Assembly: GCF_014873535.1 (NCBI RefSeq)
Contig: NZ_JADBEF010000001.1
Coordinates: 5,022,001 to 5,086,000, forward strand
Reading direction: 5' to 3'
DNA length: 64,000 bases
Origin: Nonomuraea africana
GTDB taxonomy: Bacteria > Actinomycetota > Actinomycetes > Streptosporangiales > Streptosporangiaceae
In this document: positions 49,599-64,000 of the stretch, piece after piece
Numbering within the stretch: position 1 is the stretch's first letter
Layout of the letters: the number at the start of each line of letters is the position of its first letter
The notes under the pieces: generated by a model
The model's input: only the letters and a program-made list of their open reading frames with translations
The model's database searches: none
Told to the model about the DNA's origin: nothing
Translations under genes and position numbers: made by a program

Positions 49599-50161
49599 CG
49601 GGTTTACTCCATTACTTTCTTGGGCGCGTCCACTCAAAATGAGCGCGAGATTCAGATACACCTATCGCGGCACGTCAACTGAACAGCCGTTATCGAGCCC
49701 ATTCTTGGGACGGGACCGCTGATAGGAATGATCGGTGAGCCCGGTGATCAGAAACACGTTCGTTCTCTGCCCAATTCGCGGCCACCGGGAGAGTGTGGTC
49801 CGAGCCGAGCAGCGGCGCGCCCCCGGAGTCGCCCGGGTTGGGTGAGCAATGACCGAGCAGAAAGCGGTCTTACCTCGGGACAGCCGTCCCGGCGATGGTA
49901 TTCGTGGGCCCCATGCGGGCCCTGGCTCGGCCGGGACTTGATCTCAAATGGCACCCGGCAGGGCTCGGACGAATCGAGACGTGAAATGAAGGCTGCTCGG
50001 ATACTGCGTGCGCTGACCGATCTGGCGGGGACGGCTGTCATGGTCGCTCTGACCTGTACGTCTCCACACCGGCATGTGAATCGGCGTCGGCCGGATGCCG
50101 AACGTCAAGCCAACGGTGGTCATTGACCTGGCCCGCACGCGCGGCAGTACAGGCTGAAGTC

Positions 50162-50790
50162 GTGGAGGGCAGATTGGACGGCTACGACTACATCGTCGTA
50201 GGCGGCGGAACCGCCGGGTGCGTGCGCCTTTCCGAGAACGCTCACGCGGCCTCCGGCTCGACGGTCGACTGGCCGCGCGGGCTGGGGGCGGTGCTGGACC
50301 GGCCCAACCTCGATGTCGTGACCGGCGCGCTGGTCCACCACGTACGCGTCCGGGACGGGCGGTGCACCGGCGTCGACTACACCGTCGACGGCGTCACGCT
50401 CCGCGCGGGCTGCCCCGGAGAGGTCGTGCTCTGCGCGGGCACGGCCGGGTCGCGGCGCCCACCCGAGCGTGCCGCCCCTGCTGGACCCGGACTACCTCTC
50501 CGACGTCCGCGACCTGGACGCGATGGTCGCGGGGCTCAGGCTCGCCCGTCAGCTCGGCAACGCCGCAGGTCTGGACCCGTGGCGGGGCGAGGAGGTACTG
50601 CCGAGGCCCGGACTGAACAAGGACGGCACCATACGTGCGTACCTGCGCAGGAATCCGAACTCCTTCTACCACTACGCGGGCACCTGCCGGATCGGCACCG
50701 ACGACATGGCGGTAGTGGACCCCGACCTGCACGTACGGGGCATACGAGCCGATCAGGCGTTCGCCCGACGAAACCCGACATGCGCACACA
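50162..50790 (+). pseudogene. GMC oxidoreductase, internally deleted
   Basis: The start YDYIVVGGGTAGCVRLSENA is the FAD-binding motif of glucose-methanol-choline oxidoreductases (two residues short in GCVVAARL). Middle pieces are NLDVVTGALVHHVRVRDGRC and EVVLCAGTAGS. The end, in another frame, reads YLSDVRDLDAMVAGLRLARQ, NSFYHYAGTCRIGTDDMAVV and DPDLHVRGIR with the active-site His region. Over half the gene is deleted, so it is dead. Confidence 0.8.
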
Positions 50791-50959
50791 CCGATGACGG
50801 CCGCGACCGCGACCACAGGTGTCAAGAGGGGAGAATCCACAGTGATCGCGCGAGTGAGCGTGCGCGGGGAGCGAAGCCTGGCTGAGGTGCTGCAAGCCGA
50901 CCTCGCCGAGTGGACGCGACGCACAAATAGATACGTGGAGATCTGGGCGTTGCCCGAGC

Positions 50960-51274
50960 ATGCCGTGCCGCCCCCGGGCGACCACGGCGGTGTTGTCGGT
51001 CGTGAGGATGGTGCTGTCCGCTGTGGAGCGGCGCGAGCTGGCGCGTACCGTGTCGCTCGCCGTCACCGTGGCGCCCTCCGGGCTGCGCCTGACAGCGAGT
51101 TTCGACAGAGCCGACGACAAGGACGTGGACGGAACGGACGAAGGCTTCGACGTGCCTTCGATGCGCGCCGCCTTCGCCGAGGCGGGCGGCACGCTGAACG
51201 TGACGACCTGCGCCGGAGGCGCGACGGTCAATGGCACCATCCCGGCCACCAACCTGCGCCGACGGGCCCGCTGA
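50960..51274 (+). pseudogene. Sensor histidine kinase HATPase fragment (NarL-type partner)
   Basis: The reading VTVAPSGLRLTASFDRADDK, then GTDEGFDVPSMRAAFAEAGG and TLNVTTCAGGATVNGTIP, is a decayed copy of the ATP-binding end of NarX/DesK-like kinases (normally GxGLxGMRERVAxxGG). Key glycines are replaced. It has no upstream domains. Confidence 0.55.
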
Positions 51275-51452
51275 CGCTTGGGCCGAGGCACCGACCGGCG
51301 ATCGCGCCCGCGCAGGGCAGATCACCGCATTCACAAAGACGGACAGGTAATGAGCAGCGAAGTGATCTGGTCGAGCGGAAACGGGCCGCGTACGTTTTCC
51401 TCGCGACCCGGCAGTCGGCGTCGCCAGTCCACGCATGCTCTGGAGATATTCG

Positions 51453-52268: not shown

Positions 52269-53147
52269 TCAGCGGGTGAGCAGGTCGCAGATGGCTCTGG
52301 CGATGTCGGCCGGGGCCTCTTCGGCCATGAAGTGGCCGCTGGTGACGGTGCTGTGGTGCAGGTCGGGGGCCCAGGCGCGCCACAGGGCGGCGGCGTCGAA
52401 GCCGAGGGCGGCGCCCCAGTCCTGCTGGAGCACGGTGACCGGCATCCGCAGCCGGTTCCCGGCGTCGCGGTCGGCCTGGTCGTGGATCACATCGATCCCG
52501 GCCGAGGCGCGGTAGTCAGCCACGATCGAGGGCACCGCGTTCCGGCAGGCGTCCAGGTAGGCGGCGCGCACGTCGGCGGGGATCGCCTGGGGGTCGTTGG
52601 TCCAGATGTCGAGGAAGTAGCCGAAGAAGGCGTCCGAGCTGGCGGCGATCATCTGCTCGGGCAGGCCAGGCGGCTGGGCCATCAGGTAGAGGTGGAAGCC
52701 GACGGCGGCGCTGGTGCCGTGCAGCACGTCCCACATCTCCAGGGTGGGCAGCACGTCGAGGCTGGCCAGGTGGGTGATCGTCTCGGGGTGGTCGAGTGCG
52801 GCGCGGAAGGCGACCAGGGCGCCCCGGTCGTGTCCGGCCAGGGCGAAGCGCTCGTGACCGAGCGCGCGGGCCAGGGCGACAATGTCGGCGGCCATGGTGC
52901 GCTTGGAGTAGACGTCGGGGCCGGTCTCGGCGGGCTTGTCGCTGGCGCCGTAACCCCGCAGGTCGGGAACGATCACGGTGTGGTCGGTCGCGAGGTCGGC
53001 GGCGACGTGCCGCCACATCAGGTGCGTCTCGGGGAAGCCGTGCAGCAGCACGATGGGGCTGCCCGAGCCGCCGATGGCCACGTTCAGGGACACGCCGTCG
53101 GCGACGTGGACGCGCTGGTAGTCGAAACCGGGAATGACAGGCGTCAT
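52269..53147 (-). CDS. Alpha/beta hydrolase, haloacetate dehalogenase-like
   Basis: A 292-residue hydrolase. The oxyanion strand is VLLHGFPETHLMWRHVAADL (residues ~33-52). The nucleophile elbow GHDRGA carries Asp107 instead of Ser, as in haloacetate and haloalkane dehalogenases and epoxide hydrolases. The charge-relay His is in VTSGHFMAEEAP. PDLRGYGASDKPAETGPDVY fits the fluoro/haloacetate dehalogenase branch. The substrate could be a haloacid or an epoxide. It stands 132 bases downstream of the STAND regulator on the same strand and may belong to the hydrolase cluster. Confidence 0.85.
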   Translation of the reverse strand: MTPVIPGFDYQRVHVADGVSLNVAIGGSGSPIVLLHGFPETHLMWRHVAADLATDHTVIVPDLRGYGASDKPAETGPDVYSKRTMAADIVALARALGHERFALAGHDRGALVAFRAALDHPETITHLASLDVLPTLEMWDVLHGTSAAVGFHLYLMAQPPGLPEQMIAASSDAFFGYFLDIWTNDPQAIPADVRAAYLDACRNAVPSIVADYRASAGIDVIHDQADRDAGNRLRMPVTVLQQDWGAALGFDAAALWRAWAPDLHHSTVTSGHFMAEEAPADIARAICDLLTR

Positions 53148-53279
53148 GATTGCGCCCTTTCAAGGAAGTGAACGGAGACCTATAACGTGCCGCGCGCGGA
53201 TGAGCATGTGATCAGCGCGCCATCGTGGCCGGGCTTTGACTACGACTGGCGGCCGAGGCAGGACCCAGAAGAAGACCAG

Positions 53280-55436
53280 TCACCTGATCTGGGCGTTCTT
53301 GGCAAGGGTGCGAGATGGGCGGTATCTGTGTGGAAGATCGCTTCGACGAGCGGGTCGGGCAGGTGTTCTTCCGTAGAGTTCGCGGTGCCACAGGCTCGCG
53401 CACACGCGTTCGATGCCACTCGTGAGATGCCGACGATAGGTGGTGAAGGGCAGGCCGAGACGTTCGGCGGCGACTTCCTGAGCGGGGGCGCCGCGTAGGA
53501 ATGTCATGGCCAGGGCGCGGTGGAGTTTATGGCTGCGTGGATCGTCGCGCAGGCTATTGATCGTCTCTTGTATCAGGTCCCGTAGAGCGGCGCCGGGATC
53601 GGATGCGGGATGTTCGGTGACGAGTCTGCTGCGGGCCAGGACATTGGTGGCCAGCGCGCTGGGCTGGAACATCTGACGCAGCGCGGTGCGAACGGCGTCG
53701 GTGAACTGTTCGTGGGACAGCACGGCGAGTTGGCATGCCGGGACGTCGGTGTGTTCCTGCCGTCCTGCCCGCAGTAGGTACTTCAGGCGTTCCAGCCACG
53801 CCTGCGCGGATACCGCACGCCAGTCATGGGCGAACAGGCCGTAGGTTTGCCCACCCAGTTGTGGCCGTTCGGTGATGTCATGCATGTCATAGTGGCGCTG
53901 GTAGCCGGCGGAGGAGTCGGGGTCCTGGATGACCACGTAGGACCAGGCCATGCGTTCGGAGCGCAGGCAGTTGCTGATGGCGCGCCATTGGATGAGGTCC
54001 ATCACCGGCGAACTGCCGCGGTAGGGAGGTAGGACCCAGCTGCGGCCGATGGCCAGGTGTTCGCCGGCGCGTAGTGGGGTGGTGGCGCGGGCGTGTGCCC
54101 AGACGGTAGCGGTGATCGGATCGGTGGCGAGTTCGTGTTCGTCGAGGTGTTCCAGGCGTAGCCAGGCGCAGAAGGCGACCGGCTGGCCGGTTTCTGTGAG
54201 CCGGTAGAGGCGGAACGCCTGGGGCTGGCGTTCGGCCCAGTAAGCGGCGCCGGCTGCGGATTCCTCGTTCTCCGCGGCGTTGGCCACCTGGATCAGCGCG
54301 TCGATGTCCTGGGGCTGGAAGAGGTCTTCTTGGACCTCTCCTTGTCCGCGCCAATGGTGGAAGTCGGAGGTCATCGCATTGTGGCGGTACAAGAAGTACA
54401 GAGATCCGACCGCGTCCGGCGCATCGCGGTCGGCCACGCTGCAGAGCCTGCCGACATGATGGGCGTGGATGCGCTGATGCATGTCGGCGTAACCTTGCGG
54501 GTCGCGCCAGCGTAGGTCGGCTTCCACCACTTCGCGGATCACATCGTGGGGGAACAAACCTTGAGTGGTGGATTCGACGAACGGCAGCCGGCGCAGCCAG
54601 GCGAACAGTTGCGTTACATCACCTGGCGATGCTTGTCTTGATGTGGCTTCGTCCTGCATGACCTCGCGTAGCAGGGTCTCGGTGGTCATGTAGGTGTGGG
54701 CGCACACTTCCAGCGCATACCGGTGTTCGGGGGATGGGATTTCGCCGATCAGTTGGTCCAGCAACGTAGCCACCACGTTCTGATCCGGGCTCCACCGGCT
54801 GCTGGCCTGCCGGTCCTTGACCGCCACCGCGGCGCCGATCGCCAGGGCCAATGGATGCCCGCCGGCGAAGGCCAGCAGCGGCTCCTGCAGATCGGCCGTC
54901 ACCCCGCGGGCGGCCACCAACGCCCTGGCCTCCGCGGGCGCCAGGTCTCGCAGCGACATCATCTCCAGAGCGTGTGCCCAGCCTGGGTCGGCACGCCAGG
55001 CAATGGCGGGCGGGGTGCGGCCGGCCACCACGACCAGCGCTTCTTCGGGCATCCTGGGCAAGAACCGTTCGTGTAGCCACCCCTCCAGGCCTTGAATCTG
55101 TTCGAAGGCGTCGATCAGCAACACCGTCCGCTCGTCGCGCAGCATCGGGGCGGCCTCGGCTTCGAACACCTCAGGTGAGGCGGTGATGGTGCGTCCGTCG
55201 ATCGTGGCCACCGATCGGCCGACCGTCGCGGCTTCCTGGGCGAAGCGTCGCAGCAACGCCGATTTGCCGATCCCGCCGGGCCCGTGCACGAACATCACGC
55301 TGCAATCGCCGCCGAACAGGGCCGAGCCGAAAACCGCCAGTTCCTCCTCCCGCCCGACGAACGCTGCTTCACGTGCACTCTGCAGACGCCGCCCCAGCAG
55401 GCCGAACCGCTTTTCCGCCCGCTCATCCGCCGCCAT
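53280..55436 (-). CDS. STAND-type ATPase with GNAT-like and helix-turn-helix domains
   Basis: A 718-residue multidomain protein. Residues ~25-200 form a STAND/NB-ARC-like ATPase: Walker A GPGGIGKS (52-59), Walker B TVLLIDAFEQ (~104-113) and the ELP-like FAGGHPLALAIGA. Residues ~405-545 look like a GNAT fold (QAFRLYRLTETGQPVAFCAW, GRSWVLPPYRGSSPVMDLIQ, AGYQRHYDMHDI). Residues ~635-690 carry a helix-turn-helix (APAQEVAAERLGLPFTTYRR). It reads like a ligand-triggered transcription factor with an acetyltransferase-type sensor. ATG 55436 was taken; TTG 55439 precedes it. The GNAT reading is by pattern. Confidence 0.7.
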   Translation of the reverse strand: MAADERAEKRFGLLGRRLQSAREAAFVGREEELAVFGSALFGGDCSVMFVHGPGGIGKSALLRRFAQEAATVGRSVATIDGRTITASPEVFEAEAAPMLRDERTVLLIDAFEQIQGLEGWLHERFLPRMPEEALVVVAGRTPPAIAWRADPGWAHALEMMSLRDLAPAEARALVAARGVTADLQEPLLAFAGGHPLALAIGAAVAVKDRQASSRWSPDQNVVATLLDQLIGEIPSPEHRYALEVCAHTYMTTETLLREVMQDEATSRQASPGDVTQLFAWLRRLPFVESTTQGLFPHDVIREVVEADLRWRDPQGYADMHQRIHAHHVGRLCSVADRDAPDAVGSLYFLYRHNAMTSDFHHWRGQGEVQEDLFQPQDIDALIQVANAAENEESAAGAAYWAERQPQAFRLYRLTETGQPVAFCAWLRLEHLDEHELATDPITATVWAHARATTPLRAGEHLAIGRSWVLPPYRGSSPVMDLIQWRAISNCLRSERMAWSYVVIQDPDSSAGYQRHYDMHDITERPQLGGQTYGLFAHDWRAVSAQAWLERLKYLLRAGRQEHTDVPACQLAVLSHEQFTDAVRTALRQMFQPSALATNVLARSRLVTEHPASDPGAALRDLIQETINSLRDDPRSHKLHRALAMTFLRGAPAQEVAAERLGLPFTTYRRHLTSGIERVCASLWHRELYGRTPARPARRSDLPHRYRPSRTLAKNAQIR

Positions 55437-55537
55437 CAAGATCTCTCTTTGTGTCCAACTTGGGAAAGTCCGTCATGCATGGCCCATCACCGCTTCCGGA
55501 CCGTGGCGCTCGGCTTGTGCAGTGCGCCCGTGGTCTC

Positions 55538-56365
55538 TCAGCGGGCGGCGCGGCGGATGAGGTCGGTGACCGCCGCGGGTTCGGAGACCGAGATCGCGTG
55601 TGAGGCGCCCTTGACGCTGACGGTGCGGGCGTCGGCGCGCTCGGCCATCCACTGCTGGGCCTTGGGCGGGATGTTGTAGTCCTGGCCGGCGATCAGGGCG
55701 TAGGAGCGGATGTCCTTCCAGGCGGCCTTGGTGGCCTTCTCCTCCAGTGCCAGGGTGGAGACCGGCCGCTGGGTGGCGGCCATGATCGCGGCGGTGGTGG
55801 CGGGCACGTCGGCGGCGAACTGCTTGCGGAACCTGTCCTGCTTGATGGTCAGTTCGGTGCCGGTGCCGCCGCCGGGCAGGGGGTAGGAGGCCTTGCTCAG
55901 GGTTTCGCCCAGGGTGCTGCCGGGGAACTTGCCGGCCAGCTCACCGGCGCTTTCGCCGGCGTCGGGGATGAACGCGGCGATGTAGACCAGGGCCTTGACG
56001 TCGGGGTCGCCGGCGGCTGCCTGGCTGATGACCGAGCCGCCGTAGGAGTGGCCGACCAGGACCACGGGTCCTTGCACGGTGTCCAGGACGCTGCGCAGGT
56101 AGGCGGCGTCGCTGCTCAGTCCGCGCAGGGGGTTGGCCGTGGCGAGGACGGGGTAGCCGTCGCGCTGCAGGCGCCGGATGACGTCGGACCAGCTGGAGGC
56201 GTCGGCGAAGGCGCCGTGGACAAGGACGATGGTCGGCTTGGCCTTCTGCGAGTTCGCGGCGCTACTGGTCGCGGTGGCGGCCAGCAGCGAGCCGACCACG
56301 ACCGGAGCGATGGCCATGGTGGCGAGGGTACGAACGACCAAGCGGGTGCGAGAAGAACGGGACAT
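55538..56365 (-). CDS. Secreted alpha/beta hydrolase (EstC/salicylate-esterase-like)
   Basis: A 275-residue exported esterase. A twin-arginine-free signal peptide (residues ~8-36, VVRTLATMAIAPVVVGSLLA) precedes IVLVHGAFADASSWSDVIRR, the elbow VGHSYGG (Ser107) and the final GASHAISVSEP with the catalytic His. The family includes plant SABP2/MES-like and bacterial EstC enzymes acting on small carboxylic esters. ATG 56365 follows AAGGAAAT. It is the exported paralogue of the gene at 56629-57339, about 50% alike by eye, and probably arose by duplication. Confidence 0.85.
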   Translation of the reverse strand: MSRSSRTRLVVRTLATMAIAPVVVGSLLAATATSSAANSQKAKPTIVLVHGAFADASSWSDVIRRLQRDGYPVLATANPLRGLSSDAAYLRSVLDTVQGPVVLVGHSYGGSVISQAAAGDPDVKALVYIAAFIPDAGESAGELAGKFPGSTLGETLSKASYPLPGGGTGTELTIKQDRFRKQFAADVPATTAAIMAATQRPVSTLALEEKATKAAWKDIRSYALIAGQDYNIPPKAQQWMAERADARTVSVKGASHAISVSEPAAVTDLIRRAAR

Positions 56366-56628
56366 AGCGATTTCCTTAAAGGTTGTTGCTGGCAGATGGC
56401 GGTCCTGCGGGGGATACGTACTTCCCGCCATGGCCACCGAGAGCGGGTTGACCGGACATACCCCCCCGCCACGGAGGCGGGGCGACGCCCGCGCATCGGC
56501 GACGAGCGCCGTGAGGGCTTGGATGACGGCTCGGCGGATCGCCCGTCTGAGGGCGACCCGCCGAGCCGGCCGATGTTACCGACTCTCCCGGTGGCTGATG
56601 TGCTGGTCGGCTTTCGGCGTGAGGGCCG

Positions 56629-57339
56629 TCATGCCACGGCTTTGACGGCCTTGAGGATGACATCGGCGACGGCGATGGGCTGGGAGGCGGGCAACGCGTG
56701 CGAGGCGCCGGCGATCTCCACCTGCTCGCGGGCACCGGCCCGTTCCGCCATGAACCGGTGGGCGGCAAGCGGGATGTTGAAGTCCAGTTCGGGATAGACG
56801 AACCAGGACGGCAGGTGCCGCCAGGCCGGCGGACCGGACTTGTCCTGCAGCGCCCGATCGTTCAACGGCCGCTGGGTGACGGCGTCCAGGGCGGCGCGCT
56901 CCGGCGGCAGGTCGGCGGCGAACTGCTGGTGGTAGCGCTCCTGGCGGATGTACAGATCGGTGCTGCCATCGGGCAGCGCGACCGCGTTCAGGGTCTCGCC
57001 GAGTGTGCTGCCGGGAAAGCGGCCGCTCAGCTCGGCGATGCTCTCGCCCTCCTCGGGCGCGAACGCGGCCACGAACACCAGCGCCTTGACCCGGTCGTCG
57101 CCGCGGACGGCGCCCGAGATGACCTGGCCGCCGTAGGAATGGCCGACCAGGACGACCGGGCCGTCGAGGGAGGACACCAGGCCGGCTACGACGTCGGCGT
57201 CACCCGACAGGCTACGCAGCGGGTTGGCGATGGCGATCACGCGCAGGTCATGCTCACGCAGCCTGGTGATGACGCCGTTCCAGCTGGCCGACTCGGCGAA
57301 CGCCCCATGGACGAGAACGACGGTGGGCGAAGTGGTCAT
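56629..57339 (-). CDS. Alpha/beta hydrolase (cytoplasmic EstC-like paralogue)
   Basis: A 236-residue hydrolase with VVLVHGAFAESASWNGVITR, the elbow VGHSYGG (Ser68), FPGSTLGETLNAVALPDGST and GASHALPASQP with the catalytic His. It lacks a signal peptide but otherwise aligns throughout with the upstream paralogue, including the PxTAALDAVTQRP-like segment. It lies 8 bases from the HSL-type gene at 57348, in the same direction, so the two are an operon. The substrate is unknown. Confidence 0.87.
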   Translation of the reverse strand: MTTSPTVVLVHGAFAESASWNGVITRLREHDLRVIAIANPLRSLSGDADVVAGLVSSLDGPVVLVGHSYGGQVISGAVRGDDRVKALVFVAAFAPEEGESIAELSGRFPGSTLGETLNAVALPDGSTDLYIRQERYHQQFAADLPPERAALDAVTQRPLNDRALQDKSGPPAWRHLPSWFVYPELDFNIPLAAHRFMAERAGAREQVEIAGASHALPASQPIAVADVILKAVKAVA

Positions 57340-57347
57340 GATTACTC

Positions 57348-58295
57348 CTAGCGGGTCTTCAGCGCGGTGGACAGAAAGTCGATGGCCTGGCGGATGGCCC
57401 TTTCGGCGGCATGAGTGCCGCGCAGGGCGTTGAGCATCACGAAGTCGTGGATGACGCCCTGGTAGCGCACAGCGGTGACCGCGACCCCGGCCGCGCGCAG
57501 CTTGTTCGCGTACTCCTCGCCCTCGTCGCGCAACACATCGGCCTCAGCGGTGATGACGAGTGCCGGCGGCAGCCCGGCCAGCTCCTCCAGGCTCGCTCGC
57601 AGCGGCGAGGCGGTGATCTGCGCACGCTCGGCGGGATCGGTGGTGTACTGGTCCCAGAACCACTGCATGCCGTCGCGGCGCAGGAAGTACCCCTCGGCGA
57701 ACTCGTGGTAGGAGCCGGTGTCGAAGGCGGCGTCGGTGACCGGATAGAACAGCACCTGCGCCGCCAGCGGAATCCCGCCCCGCTCCTTGGCCAGCAACGT
57801 GAGCGCGATGGCCATGTTCCCGCCGACCGAGTCTCCGGCGACCGCCAGACGGGAGGCGTCCAGACCATGGGCGGAGCCGTGCTCGACCACCCAGCGGGCG
57901 GCGGTGTGGACCTGTTCGATCGCGACCGGGTAGCGGGCCTCGGGGGAAGCGCTGTAGTTGACGAACACCACCGCCGCGCCCACGCCGAGGGCCAGCTCGC
58001 GGGCCAGACGGCCGTGGGTGTGGTCGTTGCCGAACACCCAGCCCGCCCCGTGCACATAGATGATCACCGGCAGGGGGCCGCTCACCCCCGCCGGCCGGAA
58101 CACGCTCACAGTCAGCCCGTCGGCGACCGTGAGAATCTCCTTGCCGGTGCCGGGCACCTCGATCTCGGGCGTCTGAGCCTGGTCCACGGCCTTGCGGCCG
58201 TCGGCGGGATCGAGGTCGAACAGGTAGGGCGGGTTGGCGGTGGCCTCGGCGAAGGCCTGCGCGGCCTCCTCGAGAACCGGTTTGACAGTGGACAT
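57348..58295 (-). CDS. HSL-family alpha/beta hydrolase (esterase)
   Basis: A 315-residue hormone-sensitive-lipase-type esterase. It has the oxyanion motif HGAGW (82-86, variant of HGGG), the elbow GDSVGGN (Ser156), the Asp region LVITAEADVLRDEGEEYANK and His in YQGVIHDFVMLNAL. The pattern DLDPADGRKAVDQAQTPEIE at the N-terminus is typical of actinomycete HSL members. It hydrolyses short-chain esters or prodrugs. It precedes and is co-directional with the EstC-like gene and is about half-identical to the next gene upstream (58461). Confidence 0.87.
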   Translation of the reverse strand: MSTVKPVLEEAAQAFAEATANPPYLFDLDPADGRKAVDQAQTPEIEVPGTGKEILTVADGLTVSVFRPAGVSGPLPVIIYVHGAGWVFGNDHTHGRLARELALGVGAAVVFVNYSASPEARYPVAIEQVHTAARWVVEHGSAHGLDASRLAVAGDSVGGNMAIALTLLAKERGGIPLAAQVLFYPVTDAAFDTGSYHEFAEGYFLRRDGMQWFWDQYTTDPAERAQITASPLRASLEELAGLPPALVITAEADVLRDEGEEYANKLRAAGVAVTAVRYQGVIHDFVMLNALRGTHAAERAIRQAIDFLSTALKTR

Positions 58296-58460
58296 CCTGG
58301 CCTCTTTCCCTGTGCATGACGTGCCGCTGCGGCCTCACGCACCTCAGCCTGACAAACCTGCCTTTCCGGACACATCAGTAAAACGACTGGTCTGTCGCTG
58401 GCTGCATCCTGAAGCGAGGGGACCCATCTCCTCCGCGGGTGGGGAGGCGGCCTGCCGGTG

Positions 58461-59456
58461 TCAGCGCCGGTCGGCCAGGGCGTCTTTGAGGAAGCGGCCA
58501 CCCTGCCTCACCGCGGCCACCGTGGGCGGGCTGTCCCGCAGCGGGTTCAGGAATGCGAAGTCGTGCACCGTCCCCAGGTAGCGCACGCAGGTCACCGGCA
58601 CGCCCGCCCGCCGCAGCAGGCGCGCGTACTGCTCACCCTCGTCCCGGACGACGTCCGCCTCCGCCGATACGACCAGGGCGGGAGGCAACCCCGAGAGATC
58701 CGCCGTGGTGGCCCGCAGCGGCGAGGCAGTGGGTTCGGCGATCTCATCGCCGTCGTCGGTGTACTGCTGCCAGTACCACTCCAACGCCGCGCGCGTCAGA
58801 AGGTAGCCGGACGCGAACTTTTCCCGCGACACGGTGTCGCAGTACGGGTCGGTCGTCGGGTAGTACAGCAGCTGCGCGCGGATACGGGGGCCGCCACGCT
58901 GCTTGGCCATCATGGTGAGCGCCGTCGCCATGGTCGCACCGGCACAGTCGCCGGCCACCGCCAGCCTCCGGCCATCCAGCCCCAGGGCGGCGGCCTGCTC
59001 GACCAACCAGGTCAGCACCGCGTACGACTCCTCGAGGGCGACCGGGTAGCGGGCCTCGGGCGTGCGGGTGTACTCGGGCACCACGAACGCGGCGCCGCTG
59101 GCGGCCGCCAGCTCGCAGATCATGCGCGCGTGAGTCCGCGCGTCGCCGAGCATCCAGCGGCCGCCGTGCAGGTACACGACCACGGGTAGAGGACCGGCCG
59201 TCCGTGGAGGCCGGAACGTCCAGAAGCCGACGAGCCCGGAGGGGCCCACCGGCGCCACCGCGTACTCGGCGTCTACATCGAAGTCGTCGTGCGCGTGGCC
59301 CTGGATCTCCAGGAGCGCCTGCCGGCCGTCGAGCGGACCGAGCTGGTGCAGGTAGGGCGGTGCGGCCGAGGCCTCGACGAACCGCTGAACGAGGGGATCG
59401 AGGACGACGGCCAAGCGGTCGGGCTCTCCTGGGCCCGTGACGGGCTCGAAACTCAC
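58461..59456 (-). CDS. HSL-family alpha/beta hydrolase with Cys nucleophile
   Basis: A 331-residue paralogue of the preceding esterase: YLHGGRWMLGD oxyanion loop (residues ~96-105), LVVSAEADVVRDEGEQYARL and YLGTVHDFAFLNPL with the expected Asp and His. The elbow reads GDCAG, with Cys171 (codon TGT) in place of the catalytic Ser of GDSAG. It may be a thiol hydrolase, a transferase or inactive. GTG 59456 was chosen, following GGAGAGGTGAGG; the frame is open to 59504. It stands 165 bases from its paralogue. Confidence 0.82.
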   Translation of the reverse strand: MSFEPVTGPGEPDRLAVVLDPLVQRFVEASAAPPYLHQLGPLDGRQALLEIQGHAHDDFDVDAEYAVAPVGPSGLVGFWTFRPPRTAGPLPVVVYLHGGRWMLGDARTHARMICELAAASGAAFVVPEYTRTPEARYPVALEESYAVLTWLVEQAAALGLDGRRLAVAGDCAGATMATALTMMAKQRGGPRIRAQLLYYPTTDPYCDTVSREKFASGYLLTRAALEWYWQQYTDDGDEIAEPTASPLRATTADLSGLPPALVVSAEADVVRDEGEQYARLLRRAGVPVTCVRYLGTVHDFAFLNPLRDSPPTVAAVRQGGRFLKDALADRR

Positions 59457-59610
59457 GCGCCTCACCTCTCCTGTCGTCGTAGTGATCAACGAGCAGCGGC
59501 CCACGGGCCGCTGGGGCGATCGCCCTCGGCGCTGCCCTCCGTCTGCGACGACCCGGAATCTCTGCCGCCTTCGGAGATGGGCGCATCCGCCGGACGGCTC
59601 GCCGTGGCGG

Positions 59611-62546
59611 TCACAGATCGCCCAGCAGAGCCCGGAGTTGGTTGCGGCTGCTCACGCCGAGCTTCGGATAAACGTTGTAGAGGTGATAGCTGACCGTGCG
59701 CGGGGAGAGCATCAGCTGCTCGGCGATCTCTCGGTTGCGTAGTCCCTGCGCCGCCAGCCGTACGATCTGGCGCTGCTGGGCGGTCAGCCCCGCCAGCGGA
59801 TCGGCCGGGGCGGGCGAGGTGGCCACACCACTGGCCCGCAGCTCACCGCGTGCCTCCTCGGCCAGGCCGATCGCGCCGAGCCGGGTGAACGACTCCAGCG
59901 CCGTGGCCAGGAGCGGGCGGGCGTCCAGCGGGCGTCGCCGCCTGCGCAGCCACTGCGCGTAGTGCAGCCTCGCCTGGGCCCGGGCCAGCGGCCACTCCTC
60001 GCCCACCGGGTTCACCGTGGCCAGCCGGAAGTGGTGCTCGGCGTCCTTCGGGTCGCCGGTCAGCGCGGCGGCGTGGTGAAGCAGCAGCGTCATCCGGGTC
60101 GTCGGCCGCGGGCCCAGCGCGGTGCGCACCGCCGCCACGATGCGGGCCGCCTCTTCCCACTGGCCCGTCCGCTGGGCGGCCGCCGCGAGGTCGGCCACCG
60201 ACCGGTGCGACAGGAAGTAGTGCAAAGGTGCGCCGTCCCCGTCGAACAGCAGCCGGAAGTGACGAAACGCGCCGTCGAAGTCGCCCGCCGCCGCGGCGGC
60301 GGTGCCGGCGGCGTGCAGCAGGCGCGCGTGTGTGGCCCGGTTCTCCTCCAGGCCGACGGCCGTCCAAGCCGGGTCGGCCGGCATGACTGCGGGCTGACCG
60401 CGCAGGGCTTGGAGGGTCACCCGCAGCGCCTCGACGTCGATCTCCAGGTGCCGCAGCTTGTGCACGGCCGCGAGCGTCGCGGCCTCCTCCAGCAGGTCGT
60501 CGGCCTCCGCCCACCGCCCGGTGTCGATCAGCGCCGAACCCATCAACGCCAGCGTAGGAGCGGCAACGCCCATGGAGCCATACGTGCGGAACATGGCGTA
60601 CGCCTGCCGGAGGGACTCCACGCACAGCTCGGACTCGTCGGCCGCCCAGGCGATGCAGCCAACGGCGCTCAACCGGTTCATCTGCGCGACGCCGACCAGC
60701 GGCTCCGGCAGGTTCGGCCGCAAGGTCCGCCGCAACAGCTCGGGGGCGTTCGTCGGGTCGGCCCCGGCCAGGGTGGAGGCCCGAACCGCGTCGAAGGCCG
60801 CGATCGTCTCCAGCTCCGCGTAGGGCGTGTCGCCGCCCCCGGTCTCGATCCGGTCGAGCAGGCCCGCTATCCGCCCCTGACCTCGGGCAGCCCTGACTGG
60901 AACGCGACTCCCTGAAGCACGGCGGTCAGGGCGAGCGCCGTCGTACCATGCTTCGGGGACTTCGGCTCCAGCGCTCCGAGCAGCACCTGGAACGCCTCCC
61001 GCTGGTGGCCGAACAACGACAGGGCCATGCCGGCGCCGCACGCCGCCAGGCCTAGCACGTCCGGATCATGAGTCAGCGCCGTGACCTTGCCGTACAGCTC
61101 GCGCACCCACGAGGGGTCGCCGGCGTTGTTGGCGGCCCTGAGCGCCTTGGCGTACCGGCGTGCCCGGTCCCTGGCTGCGGGGCTGCACTCCGCCGAGCGC
61201 TCCAGCGCCCGCGCCGCCGCGAAGAACCCGCCGCGCCGCTCGGCGAGCTCCGCGGTGTCCTCCAGCGCCGCCGCCACCGACTCGTCCTGGCCGAGGCACG
61301 CGGCGGCCAGATGCCAGGCCCGGCGGGCCGGATCCGCCGTCAGCGCCGCTGCCAAATCCCGATGCGCCCGCTGCCGGAGGTAGGCCGGGGCCCCGTGATA
61401 CGAGCCTGCACGCGCCAGCGGATGCCGGAAGGCGACTCGCCCGTCCGCGACGGTGACCAGGCCGGCGGCCTCGGCGGGAGCCCATACCGCGATATCCTGC
61501 CCCGCGCCGGCGGCGGCCATGATCGTGGCGAGGTCTTCGTACTCCGACGCCGCCGCGTACAGGATCAGCCGCTGGGTGATCTCCGGCAGGCCGTGCAGAC
61601 GCGCTGCGTACATCTGCTGGATGCGCTCCGTCCGCGGCAGCCCACCATCGGGCAGCGCTCCCGTGCCACCCATCTTGGCCGCCCGGCACAGCTCGATGAT
61701 GGCCAGCGGATTTCCGCCGGCCTGCTGGAGCAGGTCGATCCGCGTACGGCCGGTGGGCGGGTGCGGCTGAGCGTCCACGAGGTCAGCCGCGGCCTGCTCG
61801 CTCAATGGCCCCAGCAGCAGCGTGGGCAGGTCCCCGGCGACACCCTCCGGGGGAGTCTGCCCACGCGACGTCAGCAGCACCGAAACGTCCTCCGCCGCGA
61901 TACGGCGGGCCACGAAGCCGAGGACGTCGAGAGAGTCTCGGTCGGAGTGCTGGACGTCGTCCACGACCAGCAGGACGGGCCGCCGCCGGGAGACGCCTGT
62001 CAGCAATGTCAGGACCGCCACACGCAGCAGCATCGGGTCCGGCTGCCCGCCCACGGGAGCGATGCCCACCGCGCTCTCCAGCGCCCCCCGCAGATGCTCG
62101 GCAAGAGTGCCGGCCTCCGGCAGGACAGGAAGAAGCAACTGGTGCAAGGACGCGAAGGACTGCTGCGACTCCGCTTCGCTGCCCTGACACGCCAGCACGA
62201 CCCATCCGCCGCCGCGCGCATGGTCGGTGGCGGCGGCCACCAACCTCGTCTTGCCAGTGCCGGCCTCGCCGAGCAGGAGCAGGATCCGCGATTCGCCGCG
62301 CTCCGCCTCGATGACGTCCAGGATGCGACGGATCTCGGACCGCCGGCCGACCAGCGTCACAGCGGGCTCGGCCACACGCGTGACGCTGTGCCCGCCGTCT
62401 CTCCGACGCCTGCTCCGGAGGTGCTGGTGGACCGTGCGGGAGGGACACAACCGGTCAGTTCGTTCACGGCATGCTTCCTCTCCCGTCGCATCACTGCCCC
62501 GAGGCCTGCGACTACTCGACCGCAGCGCCGCAGCGGATTCACGCAT
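59611..62546 (-). pseudogene. MalT/LuxR-type large ATPase regulator, frameshifted
   Basis: A ~970-residue LAL-type regulator split by one frameshift near 60890. The N-terminal part has VTLVGRRSEIRRILDVIEAE, Walker A LGEAGTGKTRLVAA and Walker B PVLLVVDDVQHSDRDSLDVL. A long tetratricopeptide-like region follows. The C-terminal part, in the other frame, ends in a LuxR helix-turn-helix (LTAQQRQIVRLAAQGLRNRE then IAEQLMLSPRTVSYHLYNVY). Joining LPEVR to GRIAGLLDRIE restores continuity. ATG 62546 has AGGAGG eight bases upstream; GTG 62375 fits the domain start better. It likely controlled the hydrolase genes. Confidence 0.8.
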
Positions 62547-62779
62547 TCTCCCATCCTCCTCACCCAACGGCGGACACCGGGACTGCCCAGTAAACGGCTC
62601 TGTCTCTCCTCTTCCTGTCCCAACACTGACGCGTCGGGCGTTTGAAACAATGCGGCCGACGCCGGCCGACCAGTGCGGATTCTGTTTCATGGGTTGTTGC
62701 ATGCGGCTGGACGACCGAAACACCCACATGAAACGATCTCGGGGCGCGCGACGACGACTTCGTGCGCATGGAAAGCCAA

Positions 62780-62916
62780 CGACTGCCCCATACGGCCGCG
62801 AACAGCGCGGCAACAGCGCTACTCCTCCATGCCGGGGAGCCGTGCACGTACAACACGCTGCAGTCGGGGTCGTACGGGGCGGCACCGAAGGCCGCCAGTT
62901 CCTCCGCCCCTCCGAC
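62780..62916 (-). pseudogene. Remnant paralogue of the STAND regulator N-terminus
   Basis: The minus strand reads GGAEELAAFGAAPYDPDCSV, then LYVHGSPAWRSSAVAALFA, matching the first 65 residues of the STAND protein (REEELAVFGSALFGGDCSVM, FVHGPGGIGKSALLRRFA) with the Walker A Lys lost. It is a decayed second copy upstream of the LuxR-type gene. No other gene is visible between 62547 and 62975. Confidence 0.6.
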
Positions 62917-62975
62917 TGTGCGCGGCACCACAGCATCGGGCTTGCGACTACTCATTCGGGAAGGCCGTTGTCCGC

Positions 62976-63893
62976 TCAACCCGCGCGCAGCCCCGTGATG
63001 AGGGACTCCGCGACATCCAGCAGTTCGCCGCGCGATCGTGTCGTCGCCTGCACGTCGACGAACACTTCATGAGCGCCCGCCGCGCCCAGGGCGAACAGGT
63101 ACTCGATGATCTGGCTCACGGTACCGGCATGGGGCACGTGGGCAGGGTCGGCCGGCTCATCAACGATCATCGGATTGAGCCGTATCACCATGCGCAGCGC
63201 CGATGGGTCCCGGCCGGCCCGCTCGGCGGCCTGTAGCGCCGTACCCCACAACGACTCCAGGTACGGCTGAGGCAGTGCCGCCCCCAGCCAGCCGTCGGCG
63301 CGCCTGCCGACGCGTTCCAGGGCCGCATGGGTGAAACCGGCGAGCAGGATCGGCGGACGGGGTCGTTGGGCGGGCTTGAGGTGAACGTGGGAAGGCGGCA
63401 CCGTCCACAGCGGCCCCTTGTGCTCCACCACCTCCTCGGCCCAGAGGGTCTCCATCAGGTCGAGCGTCTCCTCCAGCCGGACGCCCCTCCCCTGCCAGGG
63501 CACCCCCGCCGCCGCGTACTCGTCCCGCAACCAGCCCAGCCCGATGCCCACGTCCAGCCGCCCGCGGCTGAGCAGGTCGAGCGAGGCCAGGCTGCGAGCG
63601 AGCACGACGGCCGGCTGCCACAAGGCGTTGAGCGTGCTGGTCCCCAGCCGTATGTCGCTCGTGCTGAGGGCCGCCAAGGTCAGGGCCGACAACGGATCGA
63701 AGAACGTTGTGAAGGCCTCCGGGATCGTGCCGTCTCCCCCAGGATATGGATCACTGGGTGCCAGTGGCACGAGGATGCGATCACTCGCCCACAGGCTGTC
63801 GTAGCCCATGCTCTCCAAACTCGCACTGGCACGGCCGATGAATTCCGGGTCGGCGAAGGCGCCATATTGTGGTACCGCGAAGCCGATGCGCAT
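62976..63893 (-). CDS. LLM class F420-dependent oxidoreductase
   Basis: A 305-residue luciferase-like monooxygenase-fold enzyme of the TIGR03619 type, expected to use coenzyme F420. It begins MRIGFAVPQYGAFADPEFIG. It has the SMGYDSLWASDRILVPLAPS strand, the VGIGLGWLRDEYAAAGVPWQ cofactor segment, RPRPPILLAGFTHAALERVG and a C-terminal helix. ATG 63893 was chosen by family alignment; the frame is open to 63980. It transfers hydride to an unknown substrate. A fragment nearly identical to its first 16 codons lies at 44559. Confidence 0.88.
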   Translation of the reverse strand: MRIGFAVPQYGAFADPEFIGRASASLESMGYDSLWASDRILVPLAPSDPYPGGDGTIPEAFTTFFDPLSALTLAALSTSDIRLGTSTLNALWQPAVVLARSLASLDLLSRGRLDVGIGLGWLRDEYAAAGVPWQGRGVRLEETLDLMETLWAEEVVEHKGPLWTVPPSHVHLKPAQRPRPPILLAGFTHAALERVGRRADGWLGAALPQPYLESLWGTALQAAERAGRDPSALRMVIRLNPMIVDEPADPAHVPHAGTVSQIIEYLFALGAAGAHEVFVDVQATTRSRGELLDVAESLITGLRAG

Positions 63894-64000
63894 GCAGGAT
63901 CCTTTGACCTTGAACGAAAAGTGATTGTGGCGTGGAACGCCGCGTCCATCGCCGATCGCCACCGGGCAACGCCCAGGCACTGACTTCGGTACCGAGGGCT

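Follow-up and report, generated by a model that had tools for sequence, protein, structure and literature searches.

A conserved LAL regulator and hydrolase gene order in Nonomuraea africana and related actinomycetes, with cysteine at the nucleophile position of one HSL-type protein

Eight genes lie on the minus strand of a 64,000-nucleotide stretch of the Nonomuraea africana genome (hereafter the window; contig NZ_JADBEF010000001.1, positions 5,022,001 to 5,086,000), between window positions 52269 and 63980, and they raise the question of whether such a group works as one system or holds a smaller unit among neighbours of other origin. A preliminary description favoured one system, proposing that two large ATPase regulators frame a set of enzymes dedicated to sensing and degrading ester- or halogen-containing compounds. 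The genes that it named are all found on this strand, and Pfam supports the assignment of the hydrolases, of the LAL-type regulator and of the luciferase-like F420 protein. From the comparison with other genomes, we consider it probable that the run of LAL, HSL2, HSL1 and small esterase gene(s) is a LAL-regulated operon, and that the STAND, abh and F420 genes were brought to it by rearrangement.

In the direction of transcription, this run begins with the LAL-type regulator (59611..62573; AAA_16 ATPase, TPR-like region and GerE/LuxR HTH), followed by HSL2 (58461..59504) and HSL1 (57348..58295), which belong to the Abhydrolase_3 (HSL-type) family, and then by est_cyt (56629..57339) and its second copy est_exp (55538..56437), two small hydrolases of the Abhydrolase_6 family. 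The enzymes form two paralogous pairs, as had been described, with 52% identity between est_exp and est_cyt (233 aa) and 49% between HSL1 and HSL2 (305-320 aa). By eye, est_exp has a signal-peptide-like N-terminus, its likely start being the internal Met25, and est_cyt has no signal peptide. Outside the core are the STAND-type ATPase (53280..55439), the Abhydrolase_1 protein abh (52269..53147) and the F420-dependent luciferase-like oxidoreductase (62976..63980; TIGR03619). Elsewhere in the window, at 50121-51291, short ORFs resemble by eye a decayed gene, one of them with a GMC-oxidoreductase-like FAD motif (DYIVVGGGTAGC).

Four genes make up the conserved core: LAL, HSL2, HSL1 and the gene of a small alpha/beta hydrolase (esterase). 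In genome G030, one homologous DNA block of 7.2 kb with 88% identity (window positions 55420-62573) runs from LAL through est_exp and comprises LAL, HSL2, HSL1, est_cyt and est_exp. Orthologues of HSL2 were found in 11 of 341 genomes of the family, spread over 4 of 68 genera, with the best six candidates per genome scored and E limited to 1e-105, and 49 of the 54 genomes of the genus have none at the cut-off used; the module is rare, which weighs against the LAL-operon reading. An even sample of 394 genomes from across the class, family members included, gave HSL2-query matches in 14 (E up to 1e-95, best five candidates per genome), which are of the HSL2 type in N. africana (G000) and in a genome of another family (G572) and carry serine in the other 12. 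Both surveys used strict E-value limits, so HSL2 may also occur outside the matched genomes. HSL1 adjoins HSL2 in all 12 genomes, with an AraC-type gene intervening in G316. LAL adjoins HSL2 in 11 of the 11 genomes with sequence there, being upstream on the same strand in 10 and divergent in G572; this count omits G338, the contig of which ends 177 bases upstream, and the G264 contig carries the LAL C-terminus only. An esterase gene lies downstream in 11 of the 12, as a tandem pair in four (G000, G030, G260 and G273), the exception being G572, where no esterase was found in the 7.9 kb downstream of HSL1, a point that counts against the LAL-operon reading. The order LAL-HSL2-HSL1-esterase is thus kept in four genera (with LAL off the contig in one) at 44-94% protein identity, and LAL-HSL2-HSL1 also in the other family. 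G338, which belongs to another genus, retains HSL2 at 85%, HSL1 at 93% and est_cyt at 90% identity. Gene calls by script relied on ORF length and on GC by codon position; being heuristic, they missed some genes, such as HSL2 in L209, and the final core-gene counts were made by tblastn.

Since the LAL, HSL2, HSL1 and esterase genes recur in other genomes and control regions are nearly empty of them, the core is not a product of chance. None of 20 control regions, placed at hand-chosen round coordinates, holds a LAL-like regulator, an NB-ARC-type regulator or an est gene (E up to 1e-20), and one holds an HSL gene. A first set of 20 HSL regions has est in 17 and a large regulator in 16; these regions were DNA matches to a query including est and part of LAL and are hence est-biased (L118, picked by est and without HSL1, was omitted). 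A second set of 20, consisting of HSL1 matches in rank order with earlier-examined ones skipped, and thus of top ranks only, has est in nine and a LAL/NB-ARC/XRE/SARP-type large regulator in seven (regions up to 18.5 kb), with 13 having no such regulator; the G001 locus within this set is the core module. Small hydrolases next to large ATP-binding regulators recur in the genus, and the regulators are exchangeable. Other HSL1 loci stand beside XRE/NB-ARC/TPR regulators (L104, L106-L108, L110, L114 and L117; H3) or SARP-type (BTAD/NB-ARC/TPR) regulators (L103, L112 and L113; H6), which mostly replace LAL.

The regulator at the head of the core had been described as a large LuxR-type protein, and its N-terminal AAA_16 ATPase and C-terminal GerE HTH are indeed both present, as in LAL (MalT-like) regulators of the LuxR family. 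In the window assembly, however, they are encoded in two frames: the gene appears as two overlapping ORFs (60867-62936 and 59611-61041), and near the split at 60873 it is one base shorter than the G030 orthologue. The orthologues in G030, G009, G031 and G001 are single ORFs, and so is that in G273, which holds both the ATPase and the LuxR HTH domains. The break in the window is either a true frameshift or a sequencing or assembly error, and it is counted against the LAL-operon reading. LAL (MalT-like) regulators are known beside maltose or antibiotic genes; the window LAL, one base short, differs from them in being paired with esterase genes. Against PADLOC models, its N-terminal part gives weak matches to Avs2 (E 0.003) and RtcR (E 0.006). 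In G316, the LAL gene adjoining HSL2 (L211:9702-11979) also matches in two frames, the break being elsewhere than in the window, which is a further point against that reading.

HSL1 has the features of a family IV esterase, keeping the GDSVG nucleophile, ADVLRD and HDF motifs, with the HGGG-type oxyanion loop reading HGAG. HSL1 and HSL2 align over nearly their full length with bacterial HSL (family IV, Abhydrolase_3) esterases such as PDB 4v2i, 7yc0 and 4ob7 (best E against PDB HSL esterases 5.9e-98 and 1.5e-82, respectively), and the acid, the His and the oxyanion loop region are kept in both. They differ from these esterases in the HSL1 oxyanion motif, in the Cys in place of Ser in HSL2, and in being a paralogue pair encoded with a LAL regulator. 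Both score below the cut-offs for the LipP1 equivalog (NF058653, cut-off 350; HSL1 286.9 and HSL2 255.2 bits) and for chloramphenicol hydrolase (NF033149, cut-off 500; 219.2 and 190.3 bits). The small hydrolase est_cyt resembles plant SABP2-type methyl esterases and other Abhydrolase_6 proteins (1y7h, E 6.6e-6; 6tj2, E 7.7e-8), with GHSYGG, Asp and His present as in the SABP2 type, but the similarity is low. Outside the window, est_exp also adjoins HSL1 in G029, G021 and G005. Neither est_exp nor HSL1 matches a PADLOC model at E up to 0.01.

An unusual feature of the core is in HSL2, in which Cys187 (codon 58944..58946, derived from the residue index) occupies the position of the nucleophile Ser within the motif GDCAG, where HSL1 reads GDSVG. 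The family fold is clear (PF07859, E 3.3e-66), and Asp284 and His314 are kept. Cysteine stands at this position in all 12 distinct HSL2 orthologues (GDCAE in G316), in place of the serine expected of the family. Among HSL-type matches at E up to 1e-12 that cover the motif in the collected loci (87 distinct ones at 133 places), the nucleophile residue is Cys in 12 and Ser in 74, with one gap, and all 12 proteins with Cys group together as one clade in a FastTree phylogeny of 85 proteins (support 0.97). A second cysteine, at residue 222, is invariant in HSL2 (12/12), the corresponding residue being Phe in 52 of 52 HSL1-class proteins. Between N. africana and G030, dN/dS estimated with a simple counting script is 0.25 for HSL2, 0.16 for HSL1, 0.22 for est_cyt and 0.37 for est_exp, and the HSL2 value points to purifying selection. 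A literature search by titles and abstract beginnings, mostly excluding subscription papers, returned no account of a Cys-nucleophile HSL variant; PMC6986724 deals with a GCSAG motif, whose Cys precedes the serine, and was judged not to be on this subject.

The loss of the serine might mean that HSL2 is not an enzyme and serves HSL1 as a non-catalytic partner or ligand-binding subunit. Plants have receptors that derive from HSLs and lack a full triad, such as the gibberellin receptor GID1, and they give a precedent for this role, with which the replacement of the nucleophile Ser in 12 of 12 orthologues and the Ser paralogue always adjoining would agree. However, the His motif HDF is kept in all 12 and the Asp motif ADVVRD in all five displayed (window, G030, G031, G009 and G572), and a dead subunit would need neither. 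In addition, Cys-Asp-His triads work in other alpha/beta hydrolases, the passages of PMC11878206 on such triads naming dienelactone hydrolase, PhaZ and PHA synthase and not the HSL cluster. A non-catalytic role for HSL2 is therefore doubtful in our estimate. Only tentatively do we propose that HSL2 and HSL1 form a two-subunit hydrolase switched on by its own LAL regulator, in which the Cys-nucleophile subunit, possibly under redox control via Cys222, would carry out chemistry beyond the reach of serine HSLs, namely an acyl-thioester step of a thioesterase, lactonase or acyl-transfer kind.

At its downstream end, the core borders on the STAND gene, which the preliminary description had presented as a STAND/GNAT-like/HTH regulator. 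The ATPase domain is the part that is recognised best: a P-loop domain of the STAND NTPase kind is matched in 33 of 33 family members (E up to 1), and the window copy, with a GPGGIGKS loop, scores just below the Pfam cut-offs for nSTAND_NTPase5 (31.2 against 34 bits) and AAA_16 (31.7 against 32.6 bits). The remaining parts are less distinct. No GNAT family is among the 25 commonest Pfam/NCBIfam families listed for 33 STAND homologues, and a profile search of PDB sequences with the GNAT/HTH half gave no match. HTH-type matches among the same homologues are weak (sigma70-ECF in 5 of 33, best E 0.013; AraC-like QhpR in 8 of 33, best E 0.0023). AlphaFold gave a poor model of the C-terminal half (two sequences, pLDDT 42) with a GNAT-like strand order, for which the top Foldseek matches were mostly GNAT-type and sub-threshold (best E 4.8e-3). 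A GNAT-like middle part is thus weakly suggested by modelling, and the HTH-like C-terminus is likewise weakly supported. The STAND protein matches no PADLOC model at E up to 0.01, and its candidacy as a known defence gene was rejected on this ground.

The STAND gene lies outside the core and belongs to a separate multi-copy family. This genome has five full-length paralogues and several fragments, and a named relative is found in Spongiactinospora (Streptosporangiaceae). Across 52 full-length copies (more than 600 residues aligned) from 28 genomes, an Asp/Glu racemase gene lies within four called genes of STAND in 18 copies (17 genomes), as do MurF/D-Ala-D-Ala-ligase-like genes (18 copies, 17 genomes), and the exact convergent order of STAND, racemase and two MurF/Ddl-type genes occurs in 10 of the 52, with domains verified on one representative each. 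At L079:5356-13628 and similar loci, STAND is convergent to racemase, MurF-like and D-Ala-D-Ala-ligase-like genes, often with a two-component system on the opposite side. Such loci may be a module for peptidoglycan modification that has a STAND protein of its own. Shortened STAND genes are seen at G000:C1:3284712-3285263 and G046:C1:7627973-7628530; in these, the N- and C-terminal pieces lie near each other, as though the middle had been lost by deletion.

The junction between STAND and the esterase genes coincides with a break in homology, as the G030 operon block ends at 55420, within the first STAND ORF codons, and homology to the STAND family (G046 copy) starts at 55412. Since G030 has a Dyp peroxidase gene there instead, we read the window STAND as having come in by replacement where the esterase block ends, within an accessory region. 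It seems to have taken over the beginning of a Dyp peroxidase gene. The G030 Dyp-type peroxidase that follows est_exp (L140:9666-10646) has the same first residues, MMAADER, as the window STAND ORF.

A rival reading, that of the preliminary description, takes all eight genes as a single detoxification system in which both STAND and LAL act as sensors. The genes share a strand and short gaps. The preliminary description named as its refutation that the genes be found together in no other genome and not be co-expressed, and it is not refuted on this ground, since G046 holds STAND, F420, est_exp, HSL1 and est_cyt within about 11 kb. The STAND there is the sister of the window copy (71%, support 100/100); some 0.9 kb separates it from est_exp, HSL1 and est_cyt, and the F420 orthologue is 4.6 kb away on the other side. 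This arrangement indicates that a looser STAND-hydrolase link is older than this genome, which counts against a reading confined to the core, and in the three genomes of the genus with est_cyt and HSL1 at 86% identity or more, these genes lie within about 7 kb of some STAND. However, the gene order in G046 differs, neither LAL nor HSL2 adjoins the cluster, HSL2 is absent and a LAL-like gene is more than 20 kb off (38% identity), and the association may reflect shared ancestry and is not read as function. In the wider STAND survey, 50 of the 52 copies have no est/HSL gene within four called genes, the two exceptions being the window copy and one in G046. Among 44 STAND regions (E up to 1e-10), est_exp is found in six, est_cyt in three, HSL1 in three and HSL2 in two; a 39-region set omits L010, L078, L119, L131 and L132, of which L010, L119, L131 and L132 hold est/HSL genes or remnants. 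Conversely, G029, G021 and G005 carry est_exp (86-90% DNA identity) on contigs without a listed full STAND, and G338, with est_cyt and HSL1 at 90-93%, has no STAND on its 10-kb piece. Queries with STAND, abh and F420 gave no match in the regions retrieved from the other 11 HSL2 genomes (two of these regions being short, L207 of G338 at 10.1 kb and L210 of G264 at 6.4 kb); the one exception is G030, where another, different STAND lies 4.7 kb from est_exp. With the breakpoint at the STAND start, these observations led us to reject the two-sensor system, and an eight-gene unit is improbable. The neighbourhood comparison that had been suggested earlier therefore upholds the grouping of LAL, HSL2, HSL1 and esterase, and leaves STAND, abh and F420 outside it, and a frame of two sensors around the unit is not supported.

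Another explanation is that the region is only an accessory island in which catabolic genes were shuffled together and serve no common function, their linkage stemming from shared descent and tandem duplication. Many genes are common to G000 5074-5120 kb and G046 4620-4662 kb, in scrambled order, and fragments of est_exp and est_cyt with 86-98% DNA identity lie 9-30 kb from the window copies, with IS200-type transposase and tyrosine recombinase genes close by. High-identity est remnants within about 10 kb of STAND copies also occur at other places in this genome and in G039 and G045:C68, which shows repeated rearrangement there and is a point against a reading confined to the core. However, the core order is kept across four genera and, as LAL-HSL2-HSL1, in another family, and at 44-94% identity drift would not be expected to keep it. 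The island explanation is accordingly unlikely, and the LAL-regulated operon remains the preferred reading, with rearrangement accounting for its neighbours. Around the window copies, fragments of est_exp (98% DNA identity), est_cyt (86-88%) and abh (86%) were seen at L010:6852-7018, L009:7652-7841, L009:9069-9507 and L010:19695-20000, about 9-45 kb downstream. The shuffled region also contains a tyrosine recombinase gene, which has an HTH partner and adjoins a STAND copy, and the gene of an IS200-type transposase (L009:16811-18183 and L009:11791-12096).

The original proposal also extended to halogenated compounds, and abh had been described as dehalogenase-like. Over nearly its full length, abh aligns with fluoroacetate dehalogenase (3r3u, E 3e-59) and with the epoxide-hydrolase-like 4bat (E 1.8e-65), but the resemblance is one at the family level only. 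In fluoroacetate dehalogenase, an Arg pair binds the carboxylate, and His, Trp and Tyr bind the halide. The HDRG nucleophile region with its Asp, the first Arg, the His and the Tyr are kept in abh, but Leu stands in place of both the second pocket Arg and the halide-site Trp. A dehalogenase function of abh is not supported by its sequence, and halogen degradation was rejected as a role of the cluster.

As LAL with duplicated esterase-type hydrolases is conserved in several genera, it is reasonable to infer an operon dedicated to ester hydrolysis and equipped with a sensor of its own, and to this extent the earlier idea of an ester-sensing and ester-degrading system survives, with one sensor in place of two. 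Family membership and gene order make an operon for sensing and hydrolysing esters plausible, and from them we also infer induction, co-transcription, the kind of substrate and cooperation between HSL1 and HSL2. In this operon, the ATPase/TPR part of LAL would bind a small inducer, and its LuxR-type HTH would activate the genes downstream of LAL. The serine HSL-family protein HSL1 and the SABP2-like esterase(s) would hydrolyse the inducer or a related ester, with the exported esterase copy acting extracellularly. HSL2, with its Cys-Asp-His set, may act with HSL1 as a cysteine hydrolase, thioesterase or lactonase of different substrate preference or, alternatively, be the slow-turnover half of the HSL1/HSL2 pair. 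The STAND, abh and F420 genes would have arrived by rearrangement in an accessory region holding several STAND copies.

The comparison separates a seemingly linked STAND gene from the module as a member of a separate multi-copy family. The module itself is possibly an inducible esterase operon for mining. If HSL2 is active, it would represent a natural Ser to Cys change of nucleophile in a well-studied esterase family, and a Cys enzyme retained across genera beside a serine paralogue and its own regulator. HSL1 and HSL2 are thus a natural pair for asking what the change of nucleophile buys.
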